Shown one piece after another: positions 16,213 through 49,697 of a stretch of DNA of 55,697 nucleotides; positions within the stretch are counted from its first letter, which is position 1, and each line of letters begins with the position of its first letter. The position numbers and the translations under genes were made by a program. The notes beneath the pieces are model-generated. The model did no database searches, had not been told where the DNA came from, and worked only from the letters and a program-made list of their open reading frames with translations. The stretch is from IMG/VR virus record IMGVR_UViG_3300018432_000007, positions 1 through 55,697 of that record. One strand, 5' to 3'. The stretch comes from a virus.

Positions 16213-16305
16213 GGTGACTCCCGTGGTGTCCGGACCGGGCCCGTTGCCCTGATCTCGTACCCTCAATCTACCACATCCGTGTCTCATGCGTACACATACG
16301 TGTGG
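16213..16305 (-). promoter_or_regulatory. Operator/promoter/hairpin leader for 15811-16212
   Basis: Two palindromic sites: an imperfect one at 16271-16284 and a better one at 16292-16305 (CACATACGTGTGG core). The first abuts TGG TAGATT (16265-16270) as extended -10. The leader hairpin at 16233-16254 reads GATC, A, GGGC, 5-base loop, GCCC, GGTC, keeping the bulged A. A GGGAG ribosome site follows. Confidence 0.75.
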
Positions 16306-16351
16306 CGCCCGCAGCGGGAGCCGCGAGCGCCACAGTGGGCCATCGGGTCGG

Positions 16352-16906
16352 TCAGTAGCGGGCGCCGGGCTGCTCGACCAGCGTCACGGCGTCAACGGCC
16401 CGCAGTTCCGTGCGGTGGTCGGCGAACTGGATCACCAGGTAGGCACCGAACATGTCCACCTGCACACCCTCACGTCCGGTCATGTTGTCGCGGACGTGGG
16501 TCGCTGTCGGGCTGGTGACCCGCTGGGCGTACGCAGTGGCGCGGCGCGCGGCCGGGGCGCCGGTGACGGACCAGAACTGCACGGTTGCCCGCTCGATCGC
16601 GGCAGCCTCGGGGACGCAGGTGTGCAGGCTGGGAGCGTCGTGCACGCCGCACTTCTCGCAGGGTCGCGGCGAGTCGTCGAACTCGGTCACGATGATGTGG
16701 ACCGGCGAGCCGGTGGACGGCTTGAACGTCCACACCCCGTCCTCGTTGTACGACACGGACGCGGTCCGCTGCTCGTCGCGGGTGAGCGCGACGGATGCAG
16801 CCAGTTCAGCGGCGGTGACAGCGTCGGGTGCGGCGTACCGGCGCTCGGGCGTTCCCTGCAGGCGCTTGCCGTTGGTGCCGACCTGGACCGTGGTGTAGAT
16901 GCTCAT
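16352..16906 (-). CDS. Hypothetical protein (operator-controlled unit)
   Basis: 184 residues. The start (MSIYTTVQVGTNGKRLQGTP) resembles that of the protein at 19237 (MKTYTATQTDRHGNALDGAP): both keep a Y-T-T/A-x-Q-x-x-x-x-G-x-x-L-x-G-x-P pattern and then RRYAAPDAV or RKYRVGLPAV, so the two are distant paralogues. A central CEKCGVHDAP could bind zinc. The start is set by alignment of the leader (ATG at 16906; 16909 is also ATG). Function unknown. Confidence 0.7.
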   Translation of the reverse strand: MSIYTTVQVGTNGKRLQGTPERRYAAPDAVTAAELAASVALTRDEQRTASVSYNEDGVWTFKPSTGSPVHIIVTEFDDSPRPCEKCGVHDAPSLHTCVPEAAAIERATVQFWSVTGAPAARRATAYAQRVTSPTATHVRDNMTGREGVQVDMFGAYLVIQFADHRTELRAVDAVTLVEQPGARY

Positions 16907-16909
16907 CAT

Positions 16910-16977
16910 GTCTCCCGTGGTGACCGGGTCGGGACCGTCTCCCTGACCTCTGAAAGAACAGTACCACATGCATGTGG
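16910..16977 (-). promoter_or_regulatory. Operator/promoter/hairpin leader for 16352-16906
   Basis: Perfect palindrome CCACATGCATGTGG at 16964-16977, then TGG TACTGT (16958-16963), then the hairpin at 16927-16948 (GGTC, bulged A, GGGA, loop GACGG, TCCC, GACC) and a GGGAG ribosome site. Confidence 0.8.
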
Positions 16978-16979
16978 GG

Positions 16980-18335
16980 TCATGCGGCCATGCCGTTCCT
17001 GACCTGCTCGCGCAGCGCCAGGAGATGACGCACAGCTGCAGCAGCCTGGTGCGGAACGACGCCGTTGCCGAGCGCTTTCAGCGCATCGTTCCGCGAGATC
17101 GGCATCGTCCGGCGTGCGACCGAACCGCGGTGACCGACCGGCCGCGTGTCCCCGCCGGCTCGACGCTGCTGCAGCCGGGCACGCCACGCCTCGACGCTCT
17201 CACCTGTCACCCATCCGTCTGGGAGGCCCATCATCCACTCGACGAATCGCGGCGACAGGCGCGCAGCTCCCCCCTTCCCCGTTGCCTCGGTGGGGTCAGG
17301 TGCGGGACGCCCCAGGATCGACTCCCAGCGGGCCACGGCTGGGGCGTACTGGCGGAACCGGTGCGTCACCGCGCTGGGCAGCATCCGGTCGCCGGACGAG
17401 CCGCGCTGGTTCGGTCCCCCCTTGGTCCCGTCCGTAGCCCGGGGTGTGGGGAGCATGCGCAGCGCCTCGATCGCGAGGGACTTCCCGTGCCCGTTGCCGT
17501 TGCCGTGCGCCGACTTCATGCGTGCTGTCCAGGCGTCCCAGTCCGCGACCGCCTTGCCCGCTCCCATGTCGTTCACCGCCGGCGTCGGGAGCAGGGTCAC
17601 GGCTTCCGTACGAGCCGACCCACTGCCTCGTGCAGCGAGTCCCCGCCCGTCCCAGGCCGGTTCATCCGTGCGTAGTCCGGGCCACTGCTGCCCAGTTTCG
17701 CCTCGGGAGTCGGCAGCAGGCCAGGCAAGGACGAAGACTCGGAACCGCCCGTGAGGGGCGCCGACGTCGGAAGCGCGTACGCCCGTCCACCCAGCGTCAT
17801 ACCCGAGCTCGGCCAGGTCTCCGAGTACACGACCGAGTGCCCGCATAGGGTCTCCTCCGGCCTCTCCCATGCAGAAGTCGCAGCGTTCCAGGTGGCCAGT
17901 AGTTGCGGGGGCGTTGAGTGCTCCACGGACGTTCTCCCATACGACGAGTTGCGGGCGGATGATGTCTACGGCGTCACACATCGAGGCCCAGAGCCCCGAG
18001 CGGGTCCCTGGGCGCATCCCGGCGCGGTGACCGGCGTTGCTGAGGTCCTGGCACGGTGAGCCGCCCGAGACGACGTCTACGGGCTCGACCGCTGACCAGT
18101 CCACCTGGGTGACGTCACCGAGGTTCGGCACGCCGGGGAACCTGGTGGCGAGCACGTGGGACGGGGCGCGGTCTACCTCGGCAACCCAGGACGTCTCGAC
18201 GTCGAGCACCTGGGCCAGGCCCAGTTCCAAGCCGCCGTACCCCGCGAACAGGGCACCGGCCTTGAGGCGTCGCGGATATGGGCGAGCCCCCGTCCGGCTC
18301 TGGATGAGCCGGACGGGGGCGTGCCTGCTGATCAC
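16980..18335 (-). CDS. DNA (cytosine-5) methyltransferase
   Basis: 451 residues. Motif I is AGALFAGYGGLELGL, the catalytic PCQ loop is GGSPCQDLSNAG near residue 92, the ENV motif is VWENVRG near 135, and motif VIII-like VGAPHGRFRVFVLAWP follows. The C-terminal half holds two LLPTP/LPTPRATDG blocks and ends with the family's FVEWMMGLPDGW and NALKALGNGVVP. It methylates cytosine in an unknown site, most simply to protect phage DNA. GTG 18335 overlaps the upstream stop. A strong hairpin at 18286-18320 lies within its first codons, and a second coding-quality frame overlaps 17597-17926. Confidence 0.92.
   Translation of the reverse strand: MISRHAPVRLIQSRTGARPYPRRLKAGALFAGYGGLELGLAQVLDVETSWVAEVDRAPSHVLATRFPGVPNLGDVTQVDWSAVEPVDVVSGGSPCQDLSNAGHRAGMRPGTRSGLWASMCDAVDIIRPQLVVWENVRGALNAPATTGHLERCDFCMGEAGGDPMRALGRVLGDLAELGYDAGWTGVRASDVGAPHGRFRVFVLAWPAADSRGETGQQWPGLRTDEPAWDGRGLAARGSGSARTEAVTLLPTPAVNDMGAGKAVADWDAWTARMKSAHGNGNGHGKSLAIEALRMLPTPRATDGTKGGPNQRGSSGDRMLPSAVTHRFRQYAPAVARWESILGRPAPDPTEATGKGGAARLSPRFVEWMMGLPDGWVTGESVEAWRARLQQRRAGGDTRPVGHRGSVARRTMPISRNDALKALGNGVVPHQAAAAVRHLLALREQVRNGMAA
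17597..17926 (-). CDS. Alternative-frame ORF within the methyltransferase gene
   Basis: 109 residues in another frame of the same strand. It is not a random shadow: its third positions are mostly G/C, and it reads like the linker of phage cytosine methylases (SETWPSSGMTLGGRAYALP, APLTGGSESSS, then GLLPTPEAKLGSSGPDYARM). The LPTP block is the same kind found downstream in the main frame. It may be an overlapping gene, or the upstream part of a second protein that once joined the downstream frame near 17600. I cannot tell whether it is translated. Confidence 0.4.
   Translation of the reverse strand: MEHSTPPQLLATWNAATSAWERPEETLCGHSVVYSETWPSSGMTLGGRAYALPTSAPLTGGSESSSLPGLLPTPEAKLGSSGPDYARMNRPGTGGDSLHEAVGRLVRKP
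18286..18320 (-). terminator. Strong hairpin at the 18332/18335 gene junction
   Basis: A perfect 15-bp stem (GCCCCCGTCCGGCTC with its complement) around a 5-base loop. It lies just past the stop of 18332-19237 and therefore also in the 5' coding part of the methyltransferase. It may terminate or strongly attenuate transcription into that gene. Confidence 0.6.
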
Positions 18336-19237
18336 CGCACCATTTCGAGGTCAGCGGGCGAGAACGCGCCCAGAACACCGCTCGCGGTGCGGGCGTACAC
18401 GGGCTTGGCGAGCGGGTGATTGGCAACGATCTGCTCGACGGTCATGGGCTCGGACCACTCGCTGCCCGCGAACTCCGGCAGGGTGCAGCGGACGGTGTCG
18501 CCCAGCGCGAATGTGTTCTGCGCGGACAGGAGCACCTTGCAGCGCGCCTCGGCTGCGGTGATCGCGTCCCGCCGGTCGTCGCGCGGCGCCGGGGTCACCG
18601 TGCGCAGCGCGGTGACATAGCCCGTGCGGCGGCGCTGGCGTGACGGCGAGTTGCCGATCGTGTCCTCGGTGACGAGCCACACGTATGTACGGCCCTCGGC
18701 GTCACGGCTCTCGGAACCGCCCAGGGGAGCCTCGACAACCACGTAGCGAACGCCCTGGTTCTTCGCGTACTGCGGGCTGTCCTCACGGAACTCGACGACG
18801 GCGCCGACCGCCGGGGCGGTGGTGGGGCTGGCGATCTCGGTGCTCATGGTGTCTCCCTCGGTGACGGGGTCGGCACTAGTTTCGCTGGTCACCTCGGAAA
18901 AGACCGGGTCGAAGTCGGACAGCACGGCGCACGCGCGGTCTGCCAGCGCCGAGTCGAAGTTGTCGCGCTTCATCTCGCGGATCACCTTGCGAGCCTGCTC
19001 CACGGTCATCTCGGGCTCATCCTCGACGACGCGCACGAAGACCACGGAGCCCAGCGCGGTGGGGTTGAACGTGTACACGCCATCCTTGCTGCCACCGTGC
19101 ACGTACCCCTTGCCCGCGATCGCCATCACGTGGAACTTGGCCGCGACAGCGGGGAGACCTACGCGGTACTTCCGGCTCGGCGCGCCATCGAGGGCGTTGC
19201 CGTGGCGGTCGGTCTGAGTAGCGGTGTACGTCTTCAT
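18332..19237 (-). CDS. Hypothetical protein, fusion across a decayed leader
   Basis: 301 residues. Residues 1-130 resemble the protein at 16352 at the N-terminus. Residues 131-301 start at an internal ATG (18847) with GAGGGAG before it. The DNA between the parts (18848-18905) still resembles the repeated leader, and the protein there reads DPVTEGDTM, as the leaders would if translated. The fusion thus likely arose when an intergenic promoter lost its palindrome, hairpin and stop codons. The second part (VGAVVEFREDSPQYAKNQG) looks globular. Function unknown. Confidence 0.7.
   Translation of the reverse strand: MKTYTATQTDRHGNALDGAPSRKYRVGLPAVAAKFHVMAIAGKGYVHGGSKDGVYTFNPTALGSVVFVRVVEDEPEMTVEQARKVIREMKRDNFDSALADRACAVLSDFDPVFSEVTSETSADPVTEGDTMSTEIASPTTAPAVGAVVEFREDSPQYAKNQGVRYVVVEAPLGGSESRDAEGRTYVWLVTEDTIGNSPSRQRRRTGYVTALRTVTPAPRDDRRDAITAAEARCKVLLSAQNTFALGDTVRCTLPEFAGSEWSEPMTVEQIVANHPLAKPVYARTASGVLGAFSPADLEMVR
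18848..18905 (-). promoter_or_regulatory. Decayed copy of the repeated leader inside a gene
   Basis: On the minus strand this stretch aligns with the leaders: GAGGTGACC where others have GAGGTCAGG, GCCGACCCCGTCACC where others have CCCGACC-CAGTCACC, then GGGAGACACC before ATG. The palindrome and hairpin pairing are lost. See the fused gene 18332-19237. Confidence 0.6.
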
Positions 19238-19309
19238 GATGTCTCCCTGGGTGACTCTGGTCGGGACTCGCTCCCTGACCTCTGACAGAACAGTACCACA
19301 TGCATGTGG
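19238..19309 (-). promoter_or_regulatory. Operator/promoter/hairpin leader for 18332-19237
   Basis: Perfect palindrome at 19296-19309, TGG TACTGT at the -10 (19290-19295), hairpin at 19259-19280 (GGTC, A, GGGA, loop GCGAG, TCCC, GACC) and a GGGAG ribosome site. Confidence 0.8.
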
Positions 19310-19346
19310 GGTCACGCGCGGGTGGCGCATGACCCCACGGTGCGGA

Positions 19347-19679
19347 TCAGCGAGGACGATTGCCCACCATGTGGTCGGCGGCGAGCGGGACGATCGAGTA
19401 GCGGCCGATCGCGGCGGCGAGGCCAGCGTGGGTCAGGCTGCCCTTGGACTTGCCCGGCGTCGGGATCATCGCGTCACCCTCGGTGGGGCGCCCGACCTCC
19501 TCAAGCACCTCACGCACCACGTAGCGGATGCCGACGCTGTCCACCTCGGTGACCTCGCAGAGCGTGGTGAAAGAGTGGATGTGCTTCGACCCGTCGGTGG
19601 CGGTCCAGAAATGTCCCTCGTTCTTCTGGAACTGGGCGCCGACCGTGACGGTGGTCTGCTGGCGGGTGCTGCGGCTCAT
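19347..19679 (-). CDS. Hypothetical protein (operator-controlled unit)
   Basis: 110 residues, largely beta (VTVGAQFQKNEGHFWTATD) with HIHSFTTLCEVTEVDSVGIR in the middle and a basic helical C-terminus ending in GNRPR. A single-gene unit with its own leader. Family not recognised. Confidence 0.68.
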   Translation of the reverse strand: MSRSTRQQTTVTVGAQFQKNEGHFWTATDGSKHIHSFTTLCEVTEVDSVGIRYVVREVLEEVGRPTEGDAMIPTPGKSKGSLTHAGLAAAIGRYSIVPLAADHMVGNRPR

Positions 19680-19750
19680 GGTGTCTCCCGTGTGACTGGG
19701 TCGGGACTCTCTCCCTGACCTCGTGACAGAACAGTACCACATTCATGTGG
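19680..19750 (-). promoter_or_regulatory. Operator/promoter/hairpin leader for 19347-19679
   Basis: Near-perfect palindrome CCACATTCATGTGG at 19737-19750, TGG TACTGT (19731-19736), hairpin at 19699-19720 with loop GAGAG, and a GGGAG ribosome site. Confidence 0.8.
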
Positions 19751-19757
19751 GGTGCCG

Positions 19758-20354
19758 TCACGTGGTGGCCACCTTTTCCAGCCAGCGGTGCAGTTCCCGT
19801 ACGTGGCGCGCGTCCGCGAGCGCATGATGCGCGGCGCGCTCCTGGGTGGGCGGGTTCCCGTCGAACGCCCACACGCGCGCCCCGACCAGCCGGCTCGCTT
19901 CCTGCTGGATGTCGTTGGTGTACATCGGGATCCCTGCGGGGAGCTCGACCATCGAGCCGAACAACTGCGCGAGCAGCACGTGGTCATACGCCGCGTAGTC
20001 GGCCCAGAGCTCGACGGGTCCGCCGGCGGCCAGGATGAACTCGCGCACCTCGCGGGCGATCGTCTCGCGGCGCTTCACGACCGGGTCCCCGTAGTGGAAC
20101 AGCCACCGCTTGCCCATGCTGTTGCGCATGTCGCCCGAGCCCTTGGGGAGCTGCGGCACAACGTGGTCCATCAGCCACCGGTGGCGCTTGATACGGCGGA
20201 CGGGCATGTCCCGGTTGACCGCGTAATACTCGCGCCCGTCCTCGCTGACCATGCCGATCGAGATCGGCTCGATGGTGCGTCCGTCCTCGATAAATTCGGT
20301 GTCGTACCAGATGCGGGTCACGGGGTTCTGCTCGGTGGTGGCCATGGCGGTCAT
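19758..20354 (-). CDS. DEDDh-type 3'-5' exonuclease (exoribonuclease AS-like)
   Basis: 198 residues. The acidic residues of the DnaQ-like fold are readable: RIWYDTEFIEDG (D and E of motif I), WADYAAYDHVLL (motif II) and HHALADARHVRELHRWL (motif III H and D). The IEPISIGMV and GREYYAVN segments match the single-domain actinobacterial 3'-exoribonuclease AS family, which trims RNA. The true start is uncertain: 20354, 20345 and GTG 20375 are possible and none has a clear ribosome site. Its upstream region carries a cluster of TGTCA sites and no repeated leader. Confidence 0.82.
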   Translation of the reverse strand: MTAMATTEQNPVTRIWYDTEFIEDGRTIEPISIGMVSEDGREYYAVNRDMPVRRIKRHRWLMDHVVPQLPKGSGDMRNSMGKRWLFHYGDPVVKRRETIAREVREFILAAGGPVELWADYAAYDHVLLAQLFGSMVELPAGIPMYTNDIQQEASRLVGARVWAFDGNPPTQERAAHHALADARHVRELHRWLEKVATT

Positions 20355-20369
20355 GGTGTCAGACCAAGC

Positions 20370-20545
20370 CGTCACAGCGGTGACACGGGGTGTTGTGCTG
20401 GTGCTGTGTCACCGGGCTGTGTCAGTGCCGCAGCCGCGCGTTTCCGGGGCTGTAAGGGCGTGTCAGGCCGGGAACGCCCGTAGGGCCCCCGCGCACGCGC
20501 GCGGGGGCCCTACGGGGTCTGTGGCGATCTGCTGACACGTGACAC
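20370..20545 (-). promoter_or_regulatory. Cluster of TGTCA/TGACA sites upstream of the exonuclease gene
   Basis: Seven copies of GTGTCA or its complement occur in about 170 bases, including a TGACACGTGACAC pair near 20533-20545 and a GTCACAGCGGTGACA dyad near 20373-20387. The spacing is irregular. It looks like an operator array for a second regulator. Confidence 0.45.
20479..20514. terminator. Strong GC-rich hairpin
   Basis: A stem of at least 15 bp (CGTAGGGCCCCCGCG with its complement) with a very small GC-rich loop, between the zinc-finger gene and the exonuclease gene. It probably ends the leftward transcript of the zinc-finger gene. Confidence 0.7.
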
Positions 20546-20582
20546 AGGTGGAGCGGCGCCCGTGGGCGCCGCTCCGGTCGTG

Positions 20583-20741
20583 CTAGCCCTGCGGGCGTGG
20601 ATCCCCGTTGCCGGGGTGCTCGTCCTTGAGGTGCTGCACCAGCGCTGAGAAGTTCCTGCACCTCTCGCCGCACTGGTCGCACTTGGGCTTGCCCAGCATC
20701 CCGTCGGCGATCTTGTCCAGTTCGTCACCCGTGGGTGGCAT
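20583..20741 (-). CDS. Single C2H2-type zinc-finger protein
   Basis: 52 residues. CDQCGERCRNFSALVQHLKDEH has two cysteines, a 12-residue spacer with an aromatic and leucine, and two histidines, the classic C2H2 finger spacing apart from a slightly longer His-His gap. It is preceded by its own operator, hairpin and an AGGAGG site, so it is a deliberately regulated unit. A DNA- or RNA-binding role is plausible; it is another candidate for recognising the repeated elements. Confidence 0.72.
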   Translation of the reverse strand: MPPTGDELDKIADGMLGKPKCDQCGERCRNFSALVQHLKDEHPGNGDPRPQG

Positions 20742-20812
20742 GTTGACCTCCTGGTCTCCGGGCCGGGGCGGTTCCCCTGACCTCGTACCCTCAGATTACC
20801 ACATGCATGTGG
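20742..20812 (-). promoter_or_regulatory. Operator/promoter/hairpin leader for 20583-20741
   Basis: Perfect palindrome at 20799-20812, TGG TAATCT (20793-20798), hairpin at 20761-20782 written GGTC, A, GGGG, loop AACCG, CCCC, GGCC. The inner closing pair differs from other copies but still pairs. Confidence 0.8.
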
Positions 20813-20814
20813 GG

Positions 20815-21009
20815 TCAGGTGTACGCCTTGCCGCTCTCGCGGACGACGTCGCCCGCGAACTCGGAGATCTGCCCCTCGTCGCTCGTGGTGAGCGTCCCCG
20901 TCTGCTGCCCGGCTGCGTTGCACACCACGATGTGCAACGCGCCGTCCCTGTGCACCACGTGCACTGTGCAAGGTGCGCCGGTGTTGCCGATCGTCCACTT
21001 GGTGGCCAT
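20815..21009 (-). CDS. Hypothetical protein
   Basis: 64 residues with alternating beta pattern (CTVHVVHRDGALHIVVCN) and an acidic helix near the end (SEFAGDVVRESGKAY). An AGAGGAA site precedes the ATG. Its stop lies three bases from the palindrome of the next unit. Family not recognised. Confidence 0.65.
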   Translation of the reverse strand: MATKWTIGNTGAPCTVHVVHRDGALHIVVCNAAGQQTGTLTTSDEGQISEFAGDVVRESGKAYT

Positions 21010-21039
21010 CGTCGTTCCTCTCGGTCGGTGAGTTGCAGG

Positions 21040-22203
21040 TCAGCCCATGGCCGCGATGACCACGTCACGGTCGTTGTATGCAGTGCGCAGGCTCGCCTTG
21101 AAACCTGCAGCGAGCAGGGCCTTGTGCACCATGTCCCCGGTTGCATCGCGGTGCTGCTGCAAGAACTCGCGGACCACCTCGCGCCGGTCGGTCACCGTGG
21201 CGTTCTTGGGGGTCTCGACGGGCCGACGCGCAGTGGGCAGGTCGGCCAGGATTGCAGACGCCTCCCGCTGCACAGCGGCTGCAGCCCGGGCGGCGTACTC
21301 GTGCACATCTGCAGTTGCAGGCCCTGCAGTTGCAGGCTCGGGCTGCAGGTCTGCAGGTGCAGATGCAACTGCAACGGGGTGTGCAACTGCAGGTGCAGAC
21401 TGCAGAACCTGCACGTGTGCAGCATCTGCAGGTGCAGGCTGCACGTGGTCTGCAACTGCAATCAGGTCGCCCTGCATCTTGTGTGCAGTGCTGGCCGCGA
21501 TCGCTGCAACCGAGACGCGGACCTGCTCGGCGTACTGCGCAGACCGCAGCCACGCGCCCAGTTCGGCGTCCCGCTCCTCGCGGGGCACGTGCTTGGCGAT
21601 CCGGCGCGCAGCGGCACGGGCCCGCGCAGCGGCCAGAGGAGCGCGCCAGGAGCCGTGTGCCAGCCCCTCGGCCTCTCCGGCCTTGAAGAACCGGTACAGG
21701 AGCGTGTGGCGGCTCTCCTGGGCCCGGTGGGCACGGTGCCGTGCACCACAGAACAGGTGGATCACCAGTTCCCAGAGCCCGGCGGCGAGGAACGGCGCGA
21801 ACATGCGCCACCCGGCAGCCGACGCAGCGGCGGACAGGGTCAGGTTCCCGGCCAGGTACTCCATGATCTCGAACAGGGCACCGAACAGCCCCGAGACGCC
21901 GGACAGCGCCCACGTCGCGGTGCGGAACACTGCGGTCGGCTGGAGCCGGTACGCCTCGATGAACGTGGCCCCGGCGACCACGGCCAGGGCCAGTTCGATG
22001 ACGCCGCCGAACAGGTAGGACGTGATCTCGGGCAGTTGCATGACGTTCTGCGCGAACGCCACGCCACCCAGGTAGGCCGCGCCGTTGGCGACGACGGCGA
22101 CGAGCAGCACGGCAAACGTGAGCGCGATCAGCAGCCGGCGGATGAATGCAGGCTCGGCCATGTGTGCAGGAGCTGCAGGCGTGGTGGTGTGGTCGGTGTG
22201 CAC
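21040..22203 (-). CDS. Spd/DUF2637-like membrane protein with DNA-binding-like C-terminus
   Basis: 387 residues. Four or more membrane helices occupy about residues 20-150 (LLIALTFAVLLVAVVANGAA, YLFGGVIELALAVVAGATF and others). A basic region, an Ala/Pro/Val/Gln low-complexity linker, and a C-terminal winged-helix-like part (VVREFLQQHRDATGDMVHKA) follow. This layout recalls Spd-type proteins of actinobacterial conjugative plasmids, which also carry a TraB/FtsK-like translocase, as here at 11440. The linker DNA is packed with TGCA, using otherwise rare codons. GTG 22203 has an AGAGGAA site. Confidence 0.6.
   Translation of the reverse strand: MHTDHTTTPAAPAHMAEPAFIRRLLIALTFAVLLVAVVANGAAYLGGVAFAQNVMQLPEITSYLFGGVIELALAVVAGATFIEAYRLQPTAVFRTATWALSGVSGLFGALFEIMEYLAGNLTLSAAASAAGWRMFAPFLAAGLWELVIHLFCGARHRAHRAQESRHTLLYRFFKAGEAEGLAHGSWRAPLAAARARAAARRIAKHVPREERDAELGAWLRSAQYAEQVRVSVAAIAASTAHKMQGDLIAVADHVQPAPADAAHVQVLQSAPAVAHPVAVASAPADLQPEPATAGPATADVHEYAARAAAAVQREASAILADLPTARRPVETPKNATVTDRREVVREFLQQHRDATGDMVHKALLAAGFKASLRTAYNDRDVVIAAMG
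21253..21487. repeat. TGCA-dense tract inside the Spd-like gene
   Basis: 26 copies of the self-complementary tetramer TGCA in 235 bases; about one would be expected by chance. Many arise from codon pairs such as ACT GCA and CCT GCA, unusual in this GC-rich genome, so selection seems to act on DNA. Confidence 0.85.
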
Positions 22204-22294
22204 TGGGATTCCTCTCTGTGCAGGCGGTCGGGACTCGTTCCCTGACCTGGTCCGCAGACCGTACCACATGCATGTGGGATTGCACATGCATGTG
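22204..22294 (-). promoter_or_regulatory. Double operator/promoter/hairpin leader for 21040-22203
   Basis: Perfect palindrome at 22264-22277 plus a second CACATGCATGTG at 22283-22294. The first abuts TGG TACGGT (22258-22263). Hairpin at 22226-22247 (GGTC, A, GGGA, loop ACGAG, TCCC, GACC), then an AGAGGAA ribosome site. Confidence 0.8.
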
Positions 22295-22430
22295 TGCAGA
22301 CGCTGTTACGGATGCATGCTTGTGACCTGCACAGTTGCAGTTGCACACCGGGATTGCAGATCACCTGCAGAGACCTGTTGCATGGCTTCTGCACATGCAA
22401 GAGGGCCCGTTGCACACCTGGTGTGCAACG
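22281..22430. repeat. TGCA-dense noncoding tract upstream of the Spd-like gene
   Basis: 14 TGCA copies in 150 noncoding bases, continuing the enrichment seen inside the gene. It overlaps the second operator and the terminator at 22405-22432. Candidate cis-acting site for partition, transfer or replication. Confidence 0.7.
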
Positions 22431-22432
22431 GG
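22405..22432 (-). terminator. Terminator of the 27697-22453 operon
   Basis: GCCCGTTGCACACC is followed by its complement with almost no loop (effective stem about 12 bp). It lies 20 bases past the stop of 22453-22632. Confidence 0.7.
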
Positions 22433-22452
22433 CTCTCGGTTCTGCAGACGGG

Positions 22453-25522: not shown

Positions 25523-25565
25523 GGGGTTCCTCCTGTGTGTGGTGTGGTGCAACACGGTAGCGGTG

Positions 25566-25943
25566 TCAGAACAGGGTGTCCTGCACGGGCAGATCGTCGG
25601 GCCACGAACCAGCGTCGCCATAGTCGGTGTCGTCAAGGTCCCAGACCTCGCCGGTGTCCAGGTCGCTGACCTGGTCCAGGTGGCAGCCGGGACAGCGCCG
25701 CACGACGAGCCGCACGTGCGGGTACAGGTCCGCTACGCCGTTGCCGGGCAAGAGCGTCCCGACGGCGCGCAGGTCGGTGTCACGGATCCACCCGCAGCCG
25801 GTGCAGGCCCAGTGGTCGGACGGGACGTGGAACACGAGCGTCGTGCGGCCGGCTAGGCCACCCTCGTCGGTCCAGTCCGACCACTGGACCGGGCGCCCGT
25901 CCCACAGTGGCGGCAGGTCGTGGGGACGGGCGTTCGTGGTCAT
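25566..25943 (-). CDS. Hypothetical zinc-binding protein
   Basis: 125 residues. CTGCGWIRDTD and RRCPGCHLDQ make a four-cysteine zinc site. Tryptophan-rich N-terminus (PVQWSDWTDEGG) and a very acidic C-terminus (DLDDTDYGDAGSWPDD). ATG 25943; GTG 25946 is an alternative. It begins five bases from the upstream stop. Confidence 0.66.
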   Translation of the reverse strand: MTTNARPHDLPPLWDGRPVQWSDWTDEGGLAGRTTLVFHVPSDHWACTGCGWIRDTDLRAVGTLLPGNGVADLYPHVRLVVRRCPGCHLDQVSDLDTGEVWDLDDTDYGDAGSWPDDLPVQDTLF

Positions 25944-25947
25944 CACG

Positions 25948-26109
25948 TCAGGATGCCTTGGCCTCTCGCGCCGCGACGGCGAGCTGCCGCGCGGCGTCGT
26001 CCCAGCGGATGCCCTGCGTCCGGGCGTGGTCAGACACCAGCTCGACGATCTCGTCCCACTCCATCGGCGCGAGTTCGCGCCGCAGCGTGGTGAAGGTCCC
26101 GGGGTTCAT
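25948..26109 (-). CDS. Hypothetical protein
   Basis: 53 residues, almost all helical, with FTTLRRELAPMEWDEIVELV and a C-terminal ARQLAVAAREAKAS. The ATG overlaps the upstream stop as ATGA. It resembles small helix-bundle proteins; no function can be given. Confidence 0.6.
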   Translation of the reverse strand: MNPGTFTTLRRELAPMEWDEIVELVSDHARTQGIRWDDAARQLAVAAREAKAS

Positions 26110-26477
26110 CCGCGGCCCTCACGGTGGGCACGGGCGCGCAGGACCTTGGCTGCGGCACGGTTCGCCGCAGTGTCGATCCCGGCGTTCGCGTCGCGCTCGG
26201 CGTCCGCGGCGACCTTGAGGAGCAGCGACGCCCCGTAGACGCGCGTGGTCAGGGAGTTGGCGCGCTCCTCGCGGCGGGCATAGTCGGCGCCGAACGTGCG
26301 CACCTGGACCATGGCGCCGTAGACCGGCAGTACCTCGGCGAGCGCCTGGACCAGGATGCTCTCGGGGATCTCGCGCAGCTCGGGGTGCCGCTCGCGCATC
26401 ACCTTGACCATCTCGGGAGCGGCGAGGTAGTCGGCGGGCGCTGCCTCGCCGCCGGTGGGGGTCAGGTCGGCGCTCAT
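26106..26477 (-). CDS. Hypothetical helical protein
   Basis: 123 residues. MVKVMRERHPELREIPESIL then a long helical C-terminus (AAADAERD-type, NRAAAKVLRARAHREG). It follows the initiator with an ATGA overlap, a place where helicase loaders or replication partners are often found in phages, but no loader motif (Walker A) is present. Confidence 0.62.
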   Translation of the reverse strand: MSADLTPTGGEAAPADYLAAPEMVKVMRERHPELREIPESILVQALAEVLPVYGAMVQVRTFGADYARREERANSLTTRVYGASLLLKVAADAERDANAGIDTAANRAAAKVLRARAHREGRG

Positions 26478-27697
26478 GCGTTCTGCTCGCTCTCTGCCCG
26501 CAGGCGGCTCGGGGGGATGACGTCACCGATCGTGGTGGTCCGGCGTGGCGCGCCCTGGGAGAGCGCGGCGCGGGCTGCCTCGAACGCGGCCCGGCCGCGC
26601 CCGTTTGCGTCGTTCGCTGCGGCCACGGCAGCCTCGAACGCGATCGCCTGGGCCGCGCCGGATCCGGGTGCAGCCTGCCCGGCGTTGATGTTGCAGTCCG
26701 GGCAGCGGCGCACGTACTCGCGGCCCTCGGGGTCGGTGGCCATGGCCATGCGGGTGCGGTGGTCGCACCGGCCGCACCACGCCAGGTGCACAGGACGTTC
26801 CTGTGCGGGCTGCATCGGCGCCGGTGCGATCTCGAACCCACGCCACTGCATGATCCGCTCGGAGAGCCGCCCAGCGTTGTGCAGGGACACCACCAGGCCC
26901 TCGGGGTTCGTGGCGCCGGTGGCCTCGATCAGCCACGTGCGGAACCGGGTCTGCTCGTCGGGGTTGAGCATCATGGCGTCCAGGATCGAGGACGGGCTGC
27001 CGACGGCGCGCGGAGCGTCGCCGTGATCCCCCTCGGGCTCGTCCGCAGCAGCGTCCGCGTTACGAGACTGGACGTTGCTGCTCGATGTCTCCACGGGTCC
27101 AGCAGTAGGCGCGCGGAGCGCGCCACTGCTCCGAGGGTCCTGGGGAGGGTTATGGAGAGGGTTGGGTGTCCCGGGGACACCCCTGGGGGTGTCTGTGTGA
27201 AACCCCTGGGGGTGTCCCTCTGACACCCCAGGCTTGGGGTGTCTCTCTGACACCCCAGGATCTGGTGCCTTGTCGGCCCTCGGCTTGCGCTCCGGAGCAG
27301 GCGCGAGCTCGGGCCGATCCTGCGGGGTCAGCGGCGGGCGCCCACGGCCCGCACGCCAGATGTTCACCGACAGTTCGGCCTCGGCGCCGTCGTACCGCTT
27401 CTCGGCCCGGAAGTACGACAGGGGCACCTGCAGGTCGTACACGACGGGGCGCCGGTTGGCGGGGATCATGAGCGCCGAGCGCTGGTCACCCTGCCGGATC
27501 AGGCCACGGTCTTCCAGGTCACCCATCCGACGGCGCACCGTCGACTCAGCGAGCCGGGTGCGGGCGCTGATCGTCATGATCGACAGGAACGAGTTACACC
27601 CGTCCTGGTCAGCGGCCTCGGACATCGCCACGAGCACGGCCCACTCCTGGGCGTCTGCGACGGGTGCGGCCTTGACGGCCCACAGGATCTGTTCCAC
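26474..27697 (-). CDS. Putative replication initiator (winged helix)
   Basis: 407 residues. The N-terminal domain has WAVLVAMSEAADQDGCN and a winged-helix part (ARTRLAESTVRRRMGDLEDR), typical of actinophage helix-turn-helix initiators. The central linker contains repeated GVSxxHP-type units encoded by iteron-like DNA. A CxxC pair (CGRCDHRT ... CPDCNIN) near residue 310 forms a zinc site. Placing origin repeats in the initiator gene recalls lambda O. GTG 27697 has a strong AGAGGGAG site; it heads the operon down to 22453. Confidence 0.7.
   Translation of the reverse strand: MEQILWAVKAAPVADAQEWAVLVAMSEAADQDGCNSFLSIMTISARTRLAESTVRRRMGDLEDRGLIRQGDQRSALMIPANRRPVVYDLQVPLSYFRAEKRYDGAEAELSVNIWRAGRGRPPLTPQDRPELAPAPERKPRADKAPDPGVSERHPKPGVSEGHPQGFHTDTPRGVPGTPNPLHNPPQDPRSSGALRAPTAGPVETSSSNVQSRNADAAADEPEGDHGDAPRAVGSPSSILDAMMLNPDEQTRFRTWLIEATGATNPEGLVVSLHNAGRLSERIMQWRGFEIAPAPMQPAQERPVHLAWCGRCDHRTRMAMATDPEGREYVRRCPDCNINAGQAAPGSGAAQAIAFEAAVAAANDANGRGRAAFEAARAALSQGAPRRTTTIGDVIPPSRLRAESEQNA
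27162..27257. repeat. Iteron-like repeats in the initiator gene, candidate origin
   Basis: Six or seven copies of TGGGGGTGTC or its complement within 96 bases: forward at about 27184, 27207 and 27235, degenerate at 27162, inverted at about 27173, 27222 and 27249. Pairs such as 27222-27243 form a dyad. They encode the repeated linker of the initiator. Confidence 0.6.
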
Positions 27698-27903
27698 GTA
27701 TCTCCCTCTCACTGGGTGAGCGGAAGCCGGAACGCCCCAAATGCCTGGTAGCATCGTGGGCGAGACGTAGCCGGGTGCTTCCGGCTTCCTGCCTCCGGGG
27801 CCCTGCACAGGTCCCGGGGGCATTTCTCTTGTTCCGGACACCATACATGCCTAAGGCACCGTTTCAGCGCTGCTCAAGGGTGATGCCCCCGTGTCTGTCA
27901 ATC

Positions 27904-27975
27904 CCACACCCGTGTGGTACTGTTCTGATGCAAGGTCAGGGAGCGAGTCCCGACCCAGTCACCCAGGGAGACACC
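27904..27975 (+). promoter_or_regulatory. Operator/promoter/hairpin leader for 27976-28308 (plus strand)
   Basis: Palindrome CCACACCCGTGTGG at 27904-27917, TGG TACTGT (27918-27923), hairpin at 27934-27955 (GGTC, A, GGGA, loop GCGAG, TCCC, GACC), GGGAG ribosome site. Same module as the minus-strand units but in the opposite orientation. Confidence 0.8.
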
Positions 27976-28308
27976 ATGAACACCCGCCGGCCCAACTCTG
28001 CGGGGCGCCCCTTCCAGCCCGGCGACCACGTCCGCATCACGGACCACACGCGCCAGCTCGTAGCGCCCGCTGAGCAGTACGTGTATGAGGGCATCGTTTC
28101 GAGGATTGATCCCGGAGCAGATCCCGACAGCGGGCACGACTACGGCCCATACCTGTGGATCGACACAGAGCCGTTCGACAACGGATCCGGGAAGACGTAC
28201 ACCGCGACGTTCTGCCCTCTCACGGAGGACCTGACCAAGGGCTCGGACGTGTTCGGTCGGACGATCGAACTGCTGGAGCCCGTGATAACCGACGGCGCGT
28301 CCAACTGA
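27976..28308 (+). CDS. Hypothetical protein, first gene of the rightward block
   Basis: 110 residues. The start FQPGDHVRITDHTRQLVAP is beta-barrel-like (SH3/KOW pattern) and continues GIVSRIDPGADPDSGHDYG, LWIDTEPFDNGSGKTYT. No catalytic motif is visible. A hairpin follows four bases after the stop. Family not recognised. Confidence 0.7.
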   Translation: MNTRRPNSAGRPFQPGDHVRITDHTRQLVAPAEQYVYEGIVSRIDPGADPDSGHDYGPYLWIDTEPFDNGSGKTYTATFCPLTEDLTKGSDVFGRTIELLEPVITDGASN

Positions 28309-28311
28309 ACT

Positions 28312-28349
28312 ACCGGGTGCGGCCCGGCTTCCCCCGGGCCGCACCCGGT
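28312..28349 (+). terminator. Terminator after 28308
   Basis: A 16-bp stem (ACCGGGTGCGGCCCGG with its complement) and a 6-base loop followed by TCTC. Confidence 0.75.
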
Positions 28350-28382
28350 TCTCATCCCACCACCGCGAGGAACGAGGACACC

Positions 28383-29039
28383 ATGGCCACGAGCATCACG
28401 ATCAGCATCAGCGGGGACGGCGACGCGCACGTCTGCGGTCCCATGTGCGACTGCCCCACCGCGCTCTACCAGACACAGGTCGCGATCGACACCGACCGCC
28501 GCGAGCAGGGCATGCAGCCCCGGGGCCTCAGCGAGCGCCTGCAGGCGATGCGGTACGCCGCACCGACGACGGCATGGTTCGAGGAGATGTCCCTGGAAGC
28601 CGTCCGGCTGGAGACCATGGCCGCGACAAGCCGGGTTCGGGACTGGATCATCCGCGACCACCCCGACAGCGACGCCGCCGTCTGGGCTGCTGAGTGCGAC
28701 GCTGCCGACGCCGCCACACCGGAAGCGCGGTACATCACGCTGCGCACCGCGATCGAGCCGCTGGTGCCGCTCCTGGTCCGCGCTGACCTGTTGCCAGCCG
28801 ATCACGAATACGTGTGGCGCGACGACATCGGGGAAGCAGTCGTGCACGCGGGCCATTACCGGTTCGCCGTCAGCGCGGCTGCCACGAGCGCGGCACGGAA
28901 CGGGGCATGGCTCGTCACGACGTCGGATGAGCGCTCCGGCGACAACACGGACGGCACGTTCAGCGAGCGCGTGAGCGTCGATCGGCAGGAGATCCGCGCG
29001 TGGCTCGTCGCCTGGGCTGCCGCGAACACCTACGCCTGA
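28383..29039 (+). CDS. Hypothetical protein
   Basis: 218 residues. It has an N-terminal CGPMCDCPTALYQTQVAID segment, a long helical middle region and an acidic/aromatic part (ADHEYVWRDDIGEAVVH). GAGGAACGAGGA precedes the ATG. No domain recognised. It is separated from the previous gene by a terminator-like hairpin, so either read-through or an unseen promoter serves it. Confidence 0.68.
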   Translation: MATSITISISGDGDAHVCGPMCDCPTALYQTQVAIDTDRREQGMQPRGLSERLQAMRYAAPTTAWFEEMSLEAVRLETMAATSRVRDWIIRDHPDSDAAVWAAECDAADAATPEARYITLRTAIEPLVPLLVRADLLPADHEYVWRDDIGEAVVHAGHYRFAVSAAATSAARNGAWLVTTSDERSGDNTDGTFSERVSVDRQEIRAWLVAWAAANTYA

Positions 29040-29084
29040 CCAGCACCACCCACCACACACCCACCACCACAAGAGAGGCCCACC

Positions 29085-29258
29085 ATGGGACTTTTCAGCC
29101 GCGACACCGAGGACACGTCCACGCCTGCGGAGCGCAAGGCGTGGAAGCGCCGCGCCGAGCAGCAGATAGCCGAGCAGCGCCGCGAGCAGCAGGGCATCCC
29201 CCGTACGCCGCCACCGGCGCCAGGATCGCAGCACCGCCGCGCACGCCGCCCCGAGTAG
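29085..29258 (+). CDS. Small basic coiled-coil-like protein
   Basis: 57 residues with MGLFSRDTEDTSTPAERKAW, then a helix of Arg/Glu/Gln (EQQIAEQRREQQG) and an Arg/Pro tail. AAGAGAGG precedes the ATG. The charge pattern suggests a short coiled coil or nucleic-acid contact. Confidence 0.58.
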   Translation: MGLFSRDTEDTSTPAERKAWKRRAEQQIAEQRREQQGIPRTPPPAPGSQHRRARRPE

Positions 29259-29277
29259 CGTTCTGACGCACTCCCCG

Positions 29278-29312
29278 GCCCACCAGCGCCCCATCACGGG
29301 GCGTTGGTGGGC
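29278..29312 (+). terminator. Terminator after 29258
   Basis: CCACCAGCGCCCC and its near-complement (one G-U pair) form a 13-bp stem around a 5-base loop; G/C runs beyond the stem may lengthen it. Confidence 0.7.
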
Positions 29313-29365
29313 GGGGGGAGTACGGCAGGCCACCAACCCCTCACGACGCCACGAAAGGCACCCTG

Positions 29366-29884
29366 ATGACCGAGCCCACCACCCCCACCACCGACGAGCC
29401 CGAGGAGGTCACCGCCGGTTGGCTGTTCATGACCGCGAACGCCCTCGGCCTGTCAGAGGCCGATCTCGCGTTCGTGCTCGGCGTCCGCCAGGACACCATC
29501 CGGAAGAACTGGAAGTACGGCACCGCCGCGATCGCCGACGGCGTCCGCACCGACCTGCAGAAGTTCGTCAAGTTCACCGACGAATGCGTGAACCTGCTCG
29601 TCGATCGCGCGGAAGGGATGACCGATCCCGCGATCGTCGTCTACGCGAACCTCCGCGACGTCCCCGAGCGCCACGTGGCTGCCGAGTACGGCATCACCTG
29701 GTGGGACCACGTCGCGTTCTCCGTGCACAAGCAGCTCCCCGAGGTGTACGTGGGCAACCTGATGGAGATCGGCGCCGCATACGACTACGACCACGTCCGG
29801 GGCCTGTCCAGCGTCCACGATGACCCGTCCATGCTCGCGATCTGGGTAACCCCGCAGCGCACCCGCGCCGGGCGCACCGTCTGA
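29366..29884 (+). CDS. Helix-turn-helix protein (DUF1870-like N-terminus)
   Basis: 172 residues. Residues 22-55 (MTANALGLSEADLAFVLGVR then DTIRKNWKYG) form a Cro/YdiL-type helix-turn-helix. The remainder (VNLLVDRAEGMTDPAIVVYAN) is mixed alpha/beta and of unknown role. It may be a regulator of the rightward block. ATG 29366 follows GAAAGG. Confidence 0.65.
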   Translation: MTEPTTPTTDEPEEVTAGWLFMTANALGLSEADLAFVLGVRQDTIRKNWKYGTAAIADGVRTDLQKFVKFTDECVNLLVDRAEGMTDPAIVVYANLRDVPERHVAAEYGITWWDHVAFSVHKQLPEVYVGNLMEIGAAYDYDHVRGLSSVHDDPSMLAIWVTPQRTRAGRTV

Positions 29885-29914
29885 CCCCTGCTCGACCACA
29901 CGAGAGGAACCACC

Positions 29915-30100
29915 ATGGCCTGGCTAGCCCCGATGAACAGATGGCGTCTGCTGACCGCATCAGACCCCGCGTACGACGGCATCCGCTACGCGGCCCTCGC
30001 GCCGGGCTGCACCAACGAGCCCCACGACGGCACCGAGTGCGGCTGCCGCATGTTCCTCGACCAGAGCGAGGGGGACAAGTACATCCGCAGCGTGATGTAG
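29915..30100 (+). CDS. Hypothetical protein
   Basis: 61 residues. MAWLAPMNRWRLLTASDPAY is followed by CTNEPHDGTECGCRMFLDQ, a possible metal site. GAGAGGAA precedes the ATG. Part of the rightward block. Confidence 0.6.
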   Translation: MAWLAPMNRWRLLTASDPAYDGIRYAALAPGCTNEPHDGTECGCRMFLDQSEGDKYIRSVM

Positions 30101-30137
30101 CCGGCTGACCAACCCCGCTCGACGAGAGGAACCACCC

Positions 30138-30569
30138 ATGGAAGAGATCCAGATCAACGCAGGGCCCCTGCGCGTTCCCACCGAGGAGAACGCCCAGGCC
30201 AACATGGACGCGTTCGCGTCAGACCTGGTCCTGCTCGACATCACCACCACGGCGATCACCCGCAACCCCGGCGCCGACGCAGACGGCCGGTACGGCTACC
30301 AGCTCGGGTTCGAGGACGGGCGCGTGCTCGACGTCGAGATGCCCGGGCTCCCGCTCGCGGAGGTCCGCTACCTCGACGAGGACGGGCAGGACATCTGGAC
30401 GTTCCCCAAGGTGTCGATCGGCGGCGAGCCGTGGGTGTGGATGTTCGCCCTCAAGGCGTGCCAGCAGCCCGGGCTCACCGCGACCCAGCAGCCCGTGCCC
30501 ACGCCGTACGAGCAGCAGGACGACAACCCCGACCCCACCAAGTGCGGGGACCCGGACTGCGACTGCTGA
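30138..30569 (+). CDS. Hypothetical protein
   Basis: 143 residues, beta-rich (YGYQLGFEDGRVLDVEMPGL, DGQDIWTFPKVSIGGEPW), ending with a Pro/Gln linker and a KCGDPDCDC tail. GAGAGGAA precedes the ATG, and a strong terminator follows. Confidence 0.66.
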   Translation: MEEIQINAGPLRVPTEENAQANMDAFASDLVLLDITTTAITRNPGADADGRYGYQLGFEDGRVLDVEMPGLPLAEVRYLDEDGQDIWTFPKVSIGGEPWVWMFALKACQQPGLTATQQPVPTPYEQQDDNPDPTKCGDPDCDC

Positions 30570-30574
30570 GACGA

Positions 30575-30610
30575 CGAGATCCCCCAGCCCGGACAGGCTG
30601 GGGGATCTCG
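30575..30610 (+). terminator. Terminator after 30569
   Basis: A perfect 15-bp stem (CGAGATCCCCCAGCC with its complement) around a 6-base loop, five bases past the stop. Confidence 0.8.
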
Positions 30611-30718
30611 CCATGGCCCCGAGGGGGAAACCTCTGGGGGGTGTCGCCCCGACGTCGTCACAGCGTCGAGATCGTCAGGATAGCCCCCACCACCGACACG
30701 GCGCTGGTGAGTTGGTGA

Positions 30719-30982
30719 TCAGCGGCCAGGACGTGACTGCTGAACCAGGTAGGTCGCGGCCTCGAACCCCAGGATCTCGTCCACCTGCCCGGGGAAGTCA
30801 GCTAGCCGTGCCACGGCCCGCATCATCGCGGCCCACTGGGACGGATGCACGGTACGAGCGATCGGCGGAAGCCGCGGGAACTGGTCCACCGGACCGGCGA
30901 GCGGCGGACGATGACTGTCACCGAACGGCGTCGAGCGGGCATACCGTGCGAGCGCGTCGGCTATCTCGTCAGCCATCAGCAT
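30719..30982 (-). CDS. Hypothetical protein on the opposite strand
   Basis: 87 residues, the only leftward gene in the rightward block. It has ADEIADALARYARSTPFGDS and HPSQWAAMMRAVARLADFPG with GC-rich third positions, so it is probably real. It is divergent from the gene at 31062 across an AT-rich region with dyad symmetry. A single divergent gene with an operator-like gap is the layout of a repressor switch, but no clear helix-turn-helix is visible. Confidence 0.58.
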   Translation of the reverse strand: MLMADEIADALARYARSTPFGDSHRPPLAGPVDQFPRLPPIARTVHPSQWAAMMRAVARLADFPGQVDEILGFEAATYLVQQSRPGR

Positions 30983-31061
30983 TACCCACCCGTCATCGTT
31001 ATGGCATTACCAGAAATGCCAGCATAATTCTCGAAACGATAACAATCTACAGGTGAGGTAA
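30983..31061. promoter_or_regulatory. AT-rich divergent control region
   Basis: The most AT-rich stretch of the window. TGGCATT and AATGCCA flank a 5-base centre near 31011-31028 with extended TTATG/CATAA arms. Near-symmetric ATCGTTAT and ACGATAAC motifs lie either side. Likely two promoters and an operator. Confidence 0.5.
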
Positions 31062-31418
31062 ATGCATATCGACGGAACCGGCCCCGTGCTTTCCTGCGAT
31101 CACAGCGCCCATACGGACACGCAGCTGATCGAATGCCTCGCGCAGTCGTGGGGCGTGACGGTGCCCCAGCTGATCGCGATCATGGCCGCGCTCGTCCTGT
31201 CCCACACCGAACGCGCGGCGATCGCGGACACCACCCCGATCGGGGTGATCAGCCTGTTGCCCGAGCTGCCCGGCCGCGAGTGCGACTGGTGTCACCGCCA
31301 GCTGCCGCCCGGCATCCACCACTCCCGGAAGTACTGCCCAGACACCGACTGCCGACGCCACGCGTACAACGCTTGGCAGCGAGCCGGCCGACCCACCAAC
31401 AGGAAGAGCACCGCATGA
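31062..31418 (+). CDS. Zinc-finger-like protein
   Basis: 118 residues. The N-terminal half is helical and partly hydrophobic (VPQLIAIMAALVLSHTERAA). The C-terminal part CDWCHRQLPP, KYCPDTDCRRHAYNAWQRAG is a clear four-cysteine zinc finger with a basic helix, as in DNA-binding or CGNR-like fingers. ATG 31062 is preceded by AGGTGAGG. Confidence 0.66.
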   Translation: MHIDGTGPVLSCDHSAHTDTQLIECLAQSWGVTVPQLIAIMAALVLSHTERAAIADTTPIGVISLLPELPGRECDWCHRQLPPGIHHSRKYCPDTDCRRHAYNAWQRAGRPTNRKSTA

Positions 31419-31654
31419 ACTGGCCCGTCATCACCCTGATCGCGCTCACCCTCGGCGTCGCCGCCGCAGCACTGTGGCTCGCCGTCGTCGACATCCGCGC
31501 CGACCGAGCTCACAACCGGTGGATGCGCCGCAACGACGTTCGCCGGCGCCGTACCCGCATCGAGGTGTCCGGCATCAGCCGCGGCTACCGAGGCATGGGC
31601 CTCGACGGTCGCGCCGACCACCCCGGCGCCCTGCGCAAGCGCACCGGCCCCTGA
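31415..31654 (+). CDS. Small membrane protein
   Basis: 79 residues with one N-terminal helix (VITLIALTLGVAAAALWLAV) and a very basic cytoplasmic tail (RRNDVRRRRTR). ATGA overlap with the previous gene. Confidence 0.64.
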   Translation: MNWPVITLIALTLGVAAAALWLAVVDIRADRAHNRWMRRNDVRRRRTRIEVSGISRGYRGMGLDGRADHPGALRKRTGP

Positions 31655-31667
31655 CCCCAGACACGTG

Positions 31668-31706
31668 AATGCCCCCGCCCCGATGGCCCATCGGAGCGGG
31701 GGCATT
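31668..31706 (+). terminator. Terminator after 31654
   Basis: AATGCCCCCGC pairs with GCGGGGGCATT (11 bp), and the interior has a further CGATGG/CCATCG stem. Confidence 0.75.
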
Positions 31707-31808
31707 CCCCCGTGAAACACGCCCTGTGATCGCGACGACGAACACCAAGCACCCGCAGCGTAACCGACCCCAGACCGACACGGGGCCCCACCCACAGGTC
31801 GAGCCGCC

Positions 31809-31878
31809 CCACACGCGTGTGGTATATTGAGCGTGCGAGACCAGGGGAACCGCCCCGGTCCAGAGCCACGGAGGCACC
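31809..31878 (+). promoter_or_regulatory. Operator/promoter/hairpin leader for the recombination genes
   Basis: Perfect palindrome CCACACGCGTGTGG at 31809-31822 abuts TGG TATATT (31823-31828), the best -10 of the set. Hairpin at 31839-31860 (GACC, A, GGGG, loop AACCG, CCCC, GGTC) with compensatory changes. A GGAGG site precedes ATG 31879. Confidence 0.82.
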
Positions 31879-49672: not shown

Positions 49673-49697
49673 AGGGGAGCGATAATATCGCTCCCCT
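49673..49697 (-). terminator. Terminator after the lysis genes
   Basis: A perfect 12-bp stem (AGGGGAGCGATA with its complement) around one base, with T-rich sequence on the right side (CCTTCTTAAGG), so it could act in both directions. Confidence 0.8.

Follow-up and report, generated by a model that had tools for sequence, protein, structure and literature searches.

A bulged-A hairpin in eight leaders of one phage: probable RNA half of a dual operator of an Aca2/YdiL-like regulator

The IMG/VR virus record IMGVR_UViG_3300018432_000007, a 55,697-bp stretch of DNA analysed here at its full length (the window), contains eight copies of a 22-nt hairpin, each situated about 10 nt 3' of a -10 promoter element. 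All eight share one architecture, in which 4 bp, an unpaired A, a second 4 bp and a 5-nt loop follow one another; six copies lie on the minus strand (beginning at 16233, 16927, 19259, 19699, 20761 and 22226) and two on the plus strand (27934 and 31839). The copies had been picked out in an earlier sequence-only reading of this DNA, and their number, positions, structure and distance of about 10 bases from the -10 all proved to be as described there. The record is probably a complete genome, terminally redundant or circular, because a perfect 123-bp direct repeat is found at both ends of the window (1-123 and 55575-55697); no named phage matched the window by BLAST.

Each hairpin stands in the leader of a gene or operon. 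On the minus strand, copy 1 (16233-16254; GATC A GGGC AACGG GCCC GGTC) leads gene 15811-16212, copy 2 (16927-16948; GGTC A GGGA GACGG TCCC GACC) leads gene 16352-16906, and copy 3 (19259-19280; GGTC A GGGA GCGAG TCCC GACC) leads two genes, 18332-19237, for whose protein a search for relatives found none, and 16980-18335, which encodes a C5-cytosine methylase. Copy 4 (19699-19720; GGTC A GGGA GAGAG TCCC GACC) precedes gene 19347-19679, copy 5 (20761-20782; GGTC A GGGG AACCG CCCC GGCC) precedes gene 20583-20741, encoding a small zinc-finger-like protein, and copy 6 (22226-22247; GGTC A GGGA ACGAG TCCC GACC) precedes gene 21040-22203. On the plus strand, copy 7 (27934-27955; GGTC A GGGA GCGAG TCCC GACC) heads the operon 27976-29884, the last gene of which encodes a regulator, and copy 8 (31839-31860; GACC A GGGG AACCG CCCC GGTC) leads gene 31879-32088 and probably also the exonuclease and Erf-like annealing genes downstream of it. 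The outer stems listed earlier (GG(T)C/GACC, GACC/GGTC and GATC/GGTC) are all present, and GGTC/GGCC, at 20761, has to be added to them.

The bare structure is not significant by itself, as about 9.5 folds of any eight pairs with the A occur per shuffled window; it is context and sequence that give significance. The pattern TGGTA-N12-18-AGGG-N7-CCC, which joins an extended -10, a spacer and the hairpin, matched exactly the eight sites in the window, where 0.02 matches are expected from shuffles. A strict detector, demanding a palindrome, the -10, the hairpin, a ribosome site and a start codon jointly, recovered seven of the eight copies as compared with 0.05 per shuffled window, and the copy that escaped it, at 16233, has a degenerate palindrome. 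The minimum-energy structure contains the hairpin in all eight leaders. Free energy was dropped as sole proof, the z-scores being modest (-0.3 to -2.4); the unusual features of the element are its fixed sequence, its fixed place in the transcript and its recurrence. Rfam gave no match above the gathering threshold anywhere in the window, and no match to the leaders of four loci at E values up to 0.1.

Compensatory changes were evident in a wider set of 72 listed copies (67 once a few double-parsed ones were removed). The fourth inner pair, counted with anchors only on AGGG and CCC, was paired in 71/72 copies (G-C 51, A-T 16, C-G 4, mismatch 1), and since it varies within the window alone (A-U in five copies, G-C in two, C-G in one), these changes are repeated events. 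In an alignment of the element (A6), 99.4% of the pairing cells were paired as compared with 94.8% after shuffling, four pairs had changed on both sides, 0/500 shuffles reached this on all measures and slid-register controls lost the covariation signal; this alignment is model-fitted and leans to its model, related rows inflate the shuffle tests, and the robust covariation measure is the number of pairs changed on both sides. The sequence-only reading had made its case depend on covariation in a wider alignment, and this was found, using a substitute for R-scape, so that its view of the element as a 5'-terminal RNA structure with genuine covariation was right.

The outer stems seen in the wider set were GGUC/GACC, GGCC/GGCC, GACC/GGUC, GAGC/GCUC and AGUC/GACU, and G-U pairs were tolerated. 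The most telling variants came from loci selected by their protein rather than by the hairpin (see below; L and G numbers are our handles for loci and genomes): L255 (GAGC A GGGC ATCAG GCCC A GCTC) and L289 (GGGC A GGC AAACG GCC A GCCC, with A.A and the loop AAACG retained) have rewritten stems and keep the architecture, the unpaired A and the loop ending. The unpaired A, formerly called invariant, is so in the window; among relatives it is replaced by C in one copy of the phage G001 and by AA in five copies elsewhere. Opposite it, of 67 copies, 42 have A, 20 nothing and 4 G, distant copies mostly forming an A.A mismatch. The loop follows the pattern RNNNG, with a purine as its first base and, in 63/67 copies, G as its last. 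The element is a real, conserved RNA element.

The hairpin also occurs widely beyond this phage, which had been missed. In a first search of IMG/VR with the bare 22-nt pattern, the matches listed were mostly chance occurrences in coding DNA, and adding CACGA, which is conserved before the hairpin, made the pattern specific. In the IMG/VR phage 3300019377_000001 (G001, 56 kb), ten copies follow promoters of the kind seen in the window, among them GGCC/GGCC outer stems, one 4-nt loop and the copy with C as the unpaired base. A second phage, 3300037478_000223 (G002, 73 kb), has at least six behind a different promoter (TTGCGC-17-TAACGT), which shows the hairpin to be separate from the promoter sequence. 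Further matches to the CACGA pattern were found in Thermobifida phage P1312, in other IMG/VR contigs and in Streptomyces, Streptosporangium, Microbispora, Cellulomonas, Galbitalea and Aeromicrobium genomes. The hairpin is present once or twice in each of dozens of prophages, plasmids and phages of actinobacteria; a match in Vincenzo was judged to be chance.

Two variant arrangements were observed among these relatives. At three G002 promoters (69004 on the plus strand, in the L150 9004 region, and 4395 and 325 on the minus strand) the bulged-A hairpin is replaced by another leader, GTGGTTGTCAGGTCGGGAACACAACCACGGAGG or close variants, placed directly against the ribosome site, which may be a second RNA operator type. 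In P1312 and its relatives (L162 2030-2060, L168, L195, L198 and L240), a second hairpin, GGGGAACAGCCCC, with an inner sequence like that of the first, stands directly behind it, and the hairpin-to-start distance is about 47 nt there.

The gene closing the copy 7 operon (29366-29884, plus strand), which the sequence-only reading had not recognized as the partner of the hairpin, encodes an Aca2/YdiL-like helix-turn-helix regulator of 172 aa, a proposed DNA- and RNA-binding repressor. When the open reading frames of 20 hairpin-selected elements were compared all against all, a single protein family was common to 19 of them, the exception (L168) being a fragment. Its members are helix-turn-helix proteins, mostly of ~120-170 aa and usually encoded in the operon behind the hairpin. 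Several exceed the 23.8-bit cut-off of Pfam Aca2_YdiL (PF08965, formerly DUF1870), namely L237 (35.7), L238 (34.3), L240 (26.9) and L200 (25.7), while the G2 copy, at 16.3 bits, falls below it. The window protein aligns with the L238 copy over ~148 residues (blastp E 2.6e-10), and a profile of 17 copies matched Aca2 structures at 9e-13; a profile built from three W-type copies only found the same genomic loci as the other profile. The best PDB matches of an AlphaFold model of the window protein (pLDDT 89) were SO3848 (6e-4), Aca2 (7e-4) and YdiL (1.9e-3), and these cover both the N-terminal helix-turn-helix and the C-terminal dimerisation domain of the Aca2 fold. Autoregulation is likely, because the regulator gene, the fourth in the operon that starts at hairpin copy 7, sits there uninterrupted by any terminator-like site, and the regulator is thus likely to limit itself through its own hairpin leader.

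The reciprocal set comprised 39 viral loci with upstream sequence, chosen by protein only. In 31/39 of these the whole leader (palindrome, -10, hairpin, ribosome site and start, in this order) was present within 1.5 kb; the strict detector found none on the opposite strand and none in 50 shuffle sets, superseding an earlier loose pattern that had given 4/39 on the opposite strand. Hairpin variants in L266, L292, L297 and L289 escape the strict detector, and of 16 plasmid and phage loci at least eight have close versions of the hairpin and three (L254, L255 and L256) diverged ones. A few loci, such as L274 and G013, belong to both the hairpin-selected and the protein-selected collection, which makes the two tests partly dependent on each other. 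Across 395 actinobacterial genomes, a sample centred on one genome that was chosen because it bears the hairpin and that is counted here, the regulator occurred in six, three of which were also the only genomes with a detected hairpin. The link between hairpin and regulator is strong, not absolute. Regulator homologues are also present on Prescottella equi virulence plasmids, and on the Gordonia plasmid pGOR1 (L252 2492-3582) an Aca2-like gene immediately precedes one annotated as type I-E Cas5, with no other cas genes in the stretch shown.

The promoters supply the DNA half of the system, a palindrome over the promoter that the sequence-only reading had passed over in its account of the hairpin. 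On the minus strand, putative operator palindromes lie at 16964-16977 (CCACATGCATGTGG; copy 2), where the palindrome abuts and overlaps the extended -10, and at 19296-19309 (CCACATGCATGTGG), 19737-19750 (CCACATGAATGTGG) and 20799-20812 (CCACATGCATGTGG); the copy 6 promoter has two adjoining ones within 22264-22295 (22264-22277 and 22282-22295), and copy 1 a degenerate one at 16271-16284 (AGACACGGATGTGG). On the plus strand they lie at 31809-31822 (CCACACGCGTGTGG) and, in the regulator's own operon, at 27904-27917 (CCACACCCGTGTGG), an inverted repeat beside and over the extended -10, as is looked for in an Aca-type autorepressor. The palindromes differ among elements (TTCCTAnnnTAGGAA, CACCCTnnnnnAGGGTG, CCCCACAnnnTGTGGGG and TGTCACCnnnGGTGACA, as compared with CCACATGCATGTGG in the window), and they do so together with the recognition helix of the regulator. 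Helices of the RTVRHW type go with TTCC arms in all cases but one (L248, where a TTCC site is present too and a longer chance palindrome was picked), RTxRSW helices with CCCT arms and RxDT helices with CCACA arms. The mutual information between helix class and palindrome class was 1.39 bits vs 0.45 shuffled (0/10,000 shuffles), a value inflated by shared ancestry; one and the same class turns up in the distant sequences W, G015 and L302. Because palindrome class tracks the recognition helix, the promoter palindrome is very probably the DNA site of the regulator. When elements of different operator class are compared, identity is 87% in the 5' arm of the hairpin and 51% in the operator arm, which indicates that, if the same protein also recognizes the RNA, it does so without following the variable residues of the helix. 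Elsewhere in the window, a perfect operator-like palindrome (CCACATGGATGTGG, minus strand) lies at 10519-10532 between two divergent small genes, with no bulged-A hairpin behind it, and may serve the regulator as a DNA-only site.

The layout of the leader is equally regular, with 17-25 nt between hairpin end and start codon in 68/72 copies (~20 nt in the window) and mostly 7-11 nt between hairpin end and ribosome site, a spacing at which a bound dimer could get in the way of the 30S subunit. From the hairpin with its covariation, position and spacing, its co-occurrence with the regulator and the co-variation of helix and palindrome, we infer that the regulator binds the RNA, that it blocks translation and that the effect is repression rather than activation. 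The element most likely serves an Aca2-like dual regulator as its RNA operator; we put the probability that it is the RNA half of a dual DNA-and-RNA operator, read by the Aca2/YdiL-like regulator encoded by the same element, at roughly 0.77. A translational operator had been among the functions offered by the sequence-only reading. In the proposed mechanism, a regulator dimer would bind the palindrome abutting or overlapping the -10 and block transcription, and messages that escape, for example from fast-replicating phage DNA, would then meet the regulator at their 5'-terminal hairpin. Contact would be made through the unpaired A and the purine-N3-G loop, and the protein, held 7-11 nt upstream of the ribosome site, would keep the 30S subunit off. 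The regulator would be self-limiting, its own operon being headed by such a leader. In most elements a single operon would be controlled in this way, as compared with eight leaders in this phage and ten and at least six in its two relatives, and the regulon here would include the DNA methylase and probably the recombination genes. The C5-cytosine DNA methylase in the copy 3 operon (16980-19237) is a candidate counter-restriction gene under the regulator.

Several points weigh against this assignment. The window protein itself has no PF08965 match, its best being an Xre-like helix-turn-helix (E 0.06), and some loci bear the protein without a recognizable hairpin (Mycobacterium phages L243-L246; genomes G088, G228 and G293). 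No known anti-CRISPR gene was recognized, and Pfam gave no match for the first operon genes; known acr genes lie upstream of only 3% of Aca2-like genes (PMC9410906). The hairpin is unlike the DNA palindromes, and therefore one protein would need two unrelated specificities, whereas the leader hairpin of ZF40 acrIF8-aca2, compared below, resembles its DNA site. Finally, co-occurrence proves no contact, and the hairpin may ride with a promoter cassette and be read by something else.

It might, for instance, be a 5'-end stability element that guards messages against pyrophosphate removal, RNase E and RNase J, with the regulator acting on DNA only. The position of the hairpin at the extreme 5' end, 3-4 nt from the predicted start, and its stable fold in all leaders accord with this, and a pure DNA regulator would likewise be co-inherited with the cassette. 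However, a protector needs neither a fixed unpaired A nor a fixed loop purine and last G (63/67), nor a fixed 17-25 nt to the start codon, and it should also occur on genes without the regulator, whereas in the 395 genomes the hairpin was detected only where the regulator gene was present; we therefore regard this role as unlikely. A conserved host factor or RNA polymerase might instead read the hairpin, for antitermination or translation and independently of the regulator, just as RNA polymerase reads the put RNA of HK022. This predicts a hairpin that stays near constant across elements and hosts while DNA operators change, as is seen, but it is made improbable by the tight linkage with one regulator family, the rarity of the hairpin outside regulator-bearing elements and the short operons behind most leaders. 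That the repeat works as DNA, being a second, downstream site of the regulator or another dimeric protein just 3' of the transcription start, like ZF40 IR2, is the least credible of the three, as its arms differ by one base (the 3' arm lacks the unpaired A, so that two-fold symmetry is lost) and are unlike the promoter palindromes, and as G-U pairs are tolerated.

If the hairpin is indeed the RNA operator of the regulator, a large actinobacterial branch of the family would also bind DNA and RNA, by way of a quite different RNA element, and this element, being recognizable by sequence, would allow targets and regulators to be listed for each genome. It would also offer a natural experiment in which one protein scaffold faces many DNA sites and one RNA site. 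A bolder extension, which we advance tentatively, is that the RNA specificity is frozen and decoupled from the fast-changing DNA specificity; every element would then have its own DNA operator and all would share one RNA operator with an unpaired A, co-resident elements could silence one another's messages, and in one phage group this would have become a genome-wide translational regulon. The hairpin would in addition be a marker for early, possibly anti-defence, uncharacterized genes in phages and plasmids of Streptomyces and other actinobacteria.

Two further repeats of the window lie apart from the leaders. Three tandem 27-nt units with internal dyad symmetry (CTGGGGGTGTC..GACACCCCAGG) occur at 27183-27259, within the predicted replication initiation gene 26474-27697; they are iteron-like and a possible origin of replication. 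A perfect 21-bp palindrome at 49674-49696 (GGGAGCGATATTATCGCTCCC) is intergenic and a candidate terminator or operator.

Among known systems, the coat operator of MS2-type RNA phages is likewise small and has its unpaired A ahead of the stem that carries the loop. The sequence-only reading had drawn this comparison, which is not supported: the unpaired A is alike, the loop, the context and the partner protein differ, no coat protein of that kind was found, and the companion of the hairpin is the Aca2/YdiL-like helix-turn-helix regulator. Closer in setting are the Start-Associated Sequences (SAS) and ESAS of Cluster K mycobacteriophages and Cluster EF Microbacterium phages, whose function is unknown (PMC3203893, PMC7302621). 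These too are short actinophage repeats that precede start codons, with an upstream inverted repeat coupled to half of those in Cluster K, and a second small hairpin with the ribosome site in its loop (CCGG-AAGGAA-CCGG), seen in 31/72 listed leaders (e.g., L239 and L264), is reminiscent of the Cluster K SAS. Unlike the 13-bp SAS at the ribosome site, however, the bulged-A hairpin lies 7-11 nt further upstream and has another sequence, and we rejected SAS membership, as GGGATAGGAGCCC (13 bp) had one window match with two mismatches where 1.6 are expected. The 17-18-bp inverted repeats of Clusters O and EG (PMC4351075, PMC7302621) are repeated palindromes of short intergenic regions, like the DNA half described here, and the parts of these papers that we consulted describe no linked 5'-terminal RNA hairpin.

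The nearest counterpart is the ZF40 acrIF8-aca2 leader, in which a palindrome over TATAAT (the -10) is followed by nine bases and the hairpin GGUUCGAG-AUGG-CUCGAAUC. The order of parts is the same in both systems (a palindrome over the -10, ~9 nt, a hairpin near the predicted 5' end, a ribosome site, a small gene and the regulator), and the regulators share their fold and hidden Markov model similarity. Aca2 reportedly binds leader stem-loops and blocks translation, a mode said to be widespread in the family. In ZF40, the hairpin has a single 8-bp stem without a bulge and a 4-nt loop, as compared with two 4-bp stems around an unpaired A and an RNNNG loop here, and unlike ZF40 a single phage has eight such leaders and no recognized anti-CRISPR gene. 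We know of no earlier case of such a regulator running eight or more leaders in one phage. Dual control of the Aca2 type has itself been reported already, ZF40 Aca2 being reported as RNA- and DNA-binding (Birkholz et al. 2024, Nature 631:670-677, cited in PMC12456014), and the actinobacterial RNA motif may already be listed in Birkholz et al. 2024; in that case only the multi-leader regulon of this divergent actinobacterial branch would be new here.

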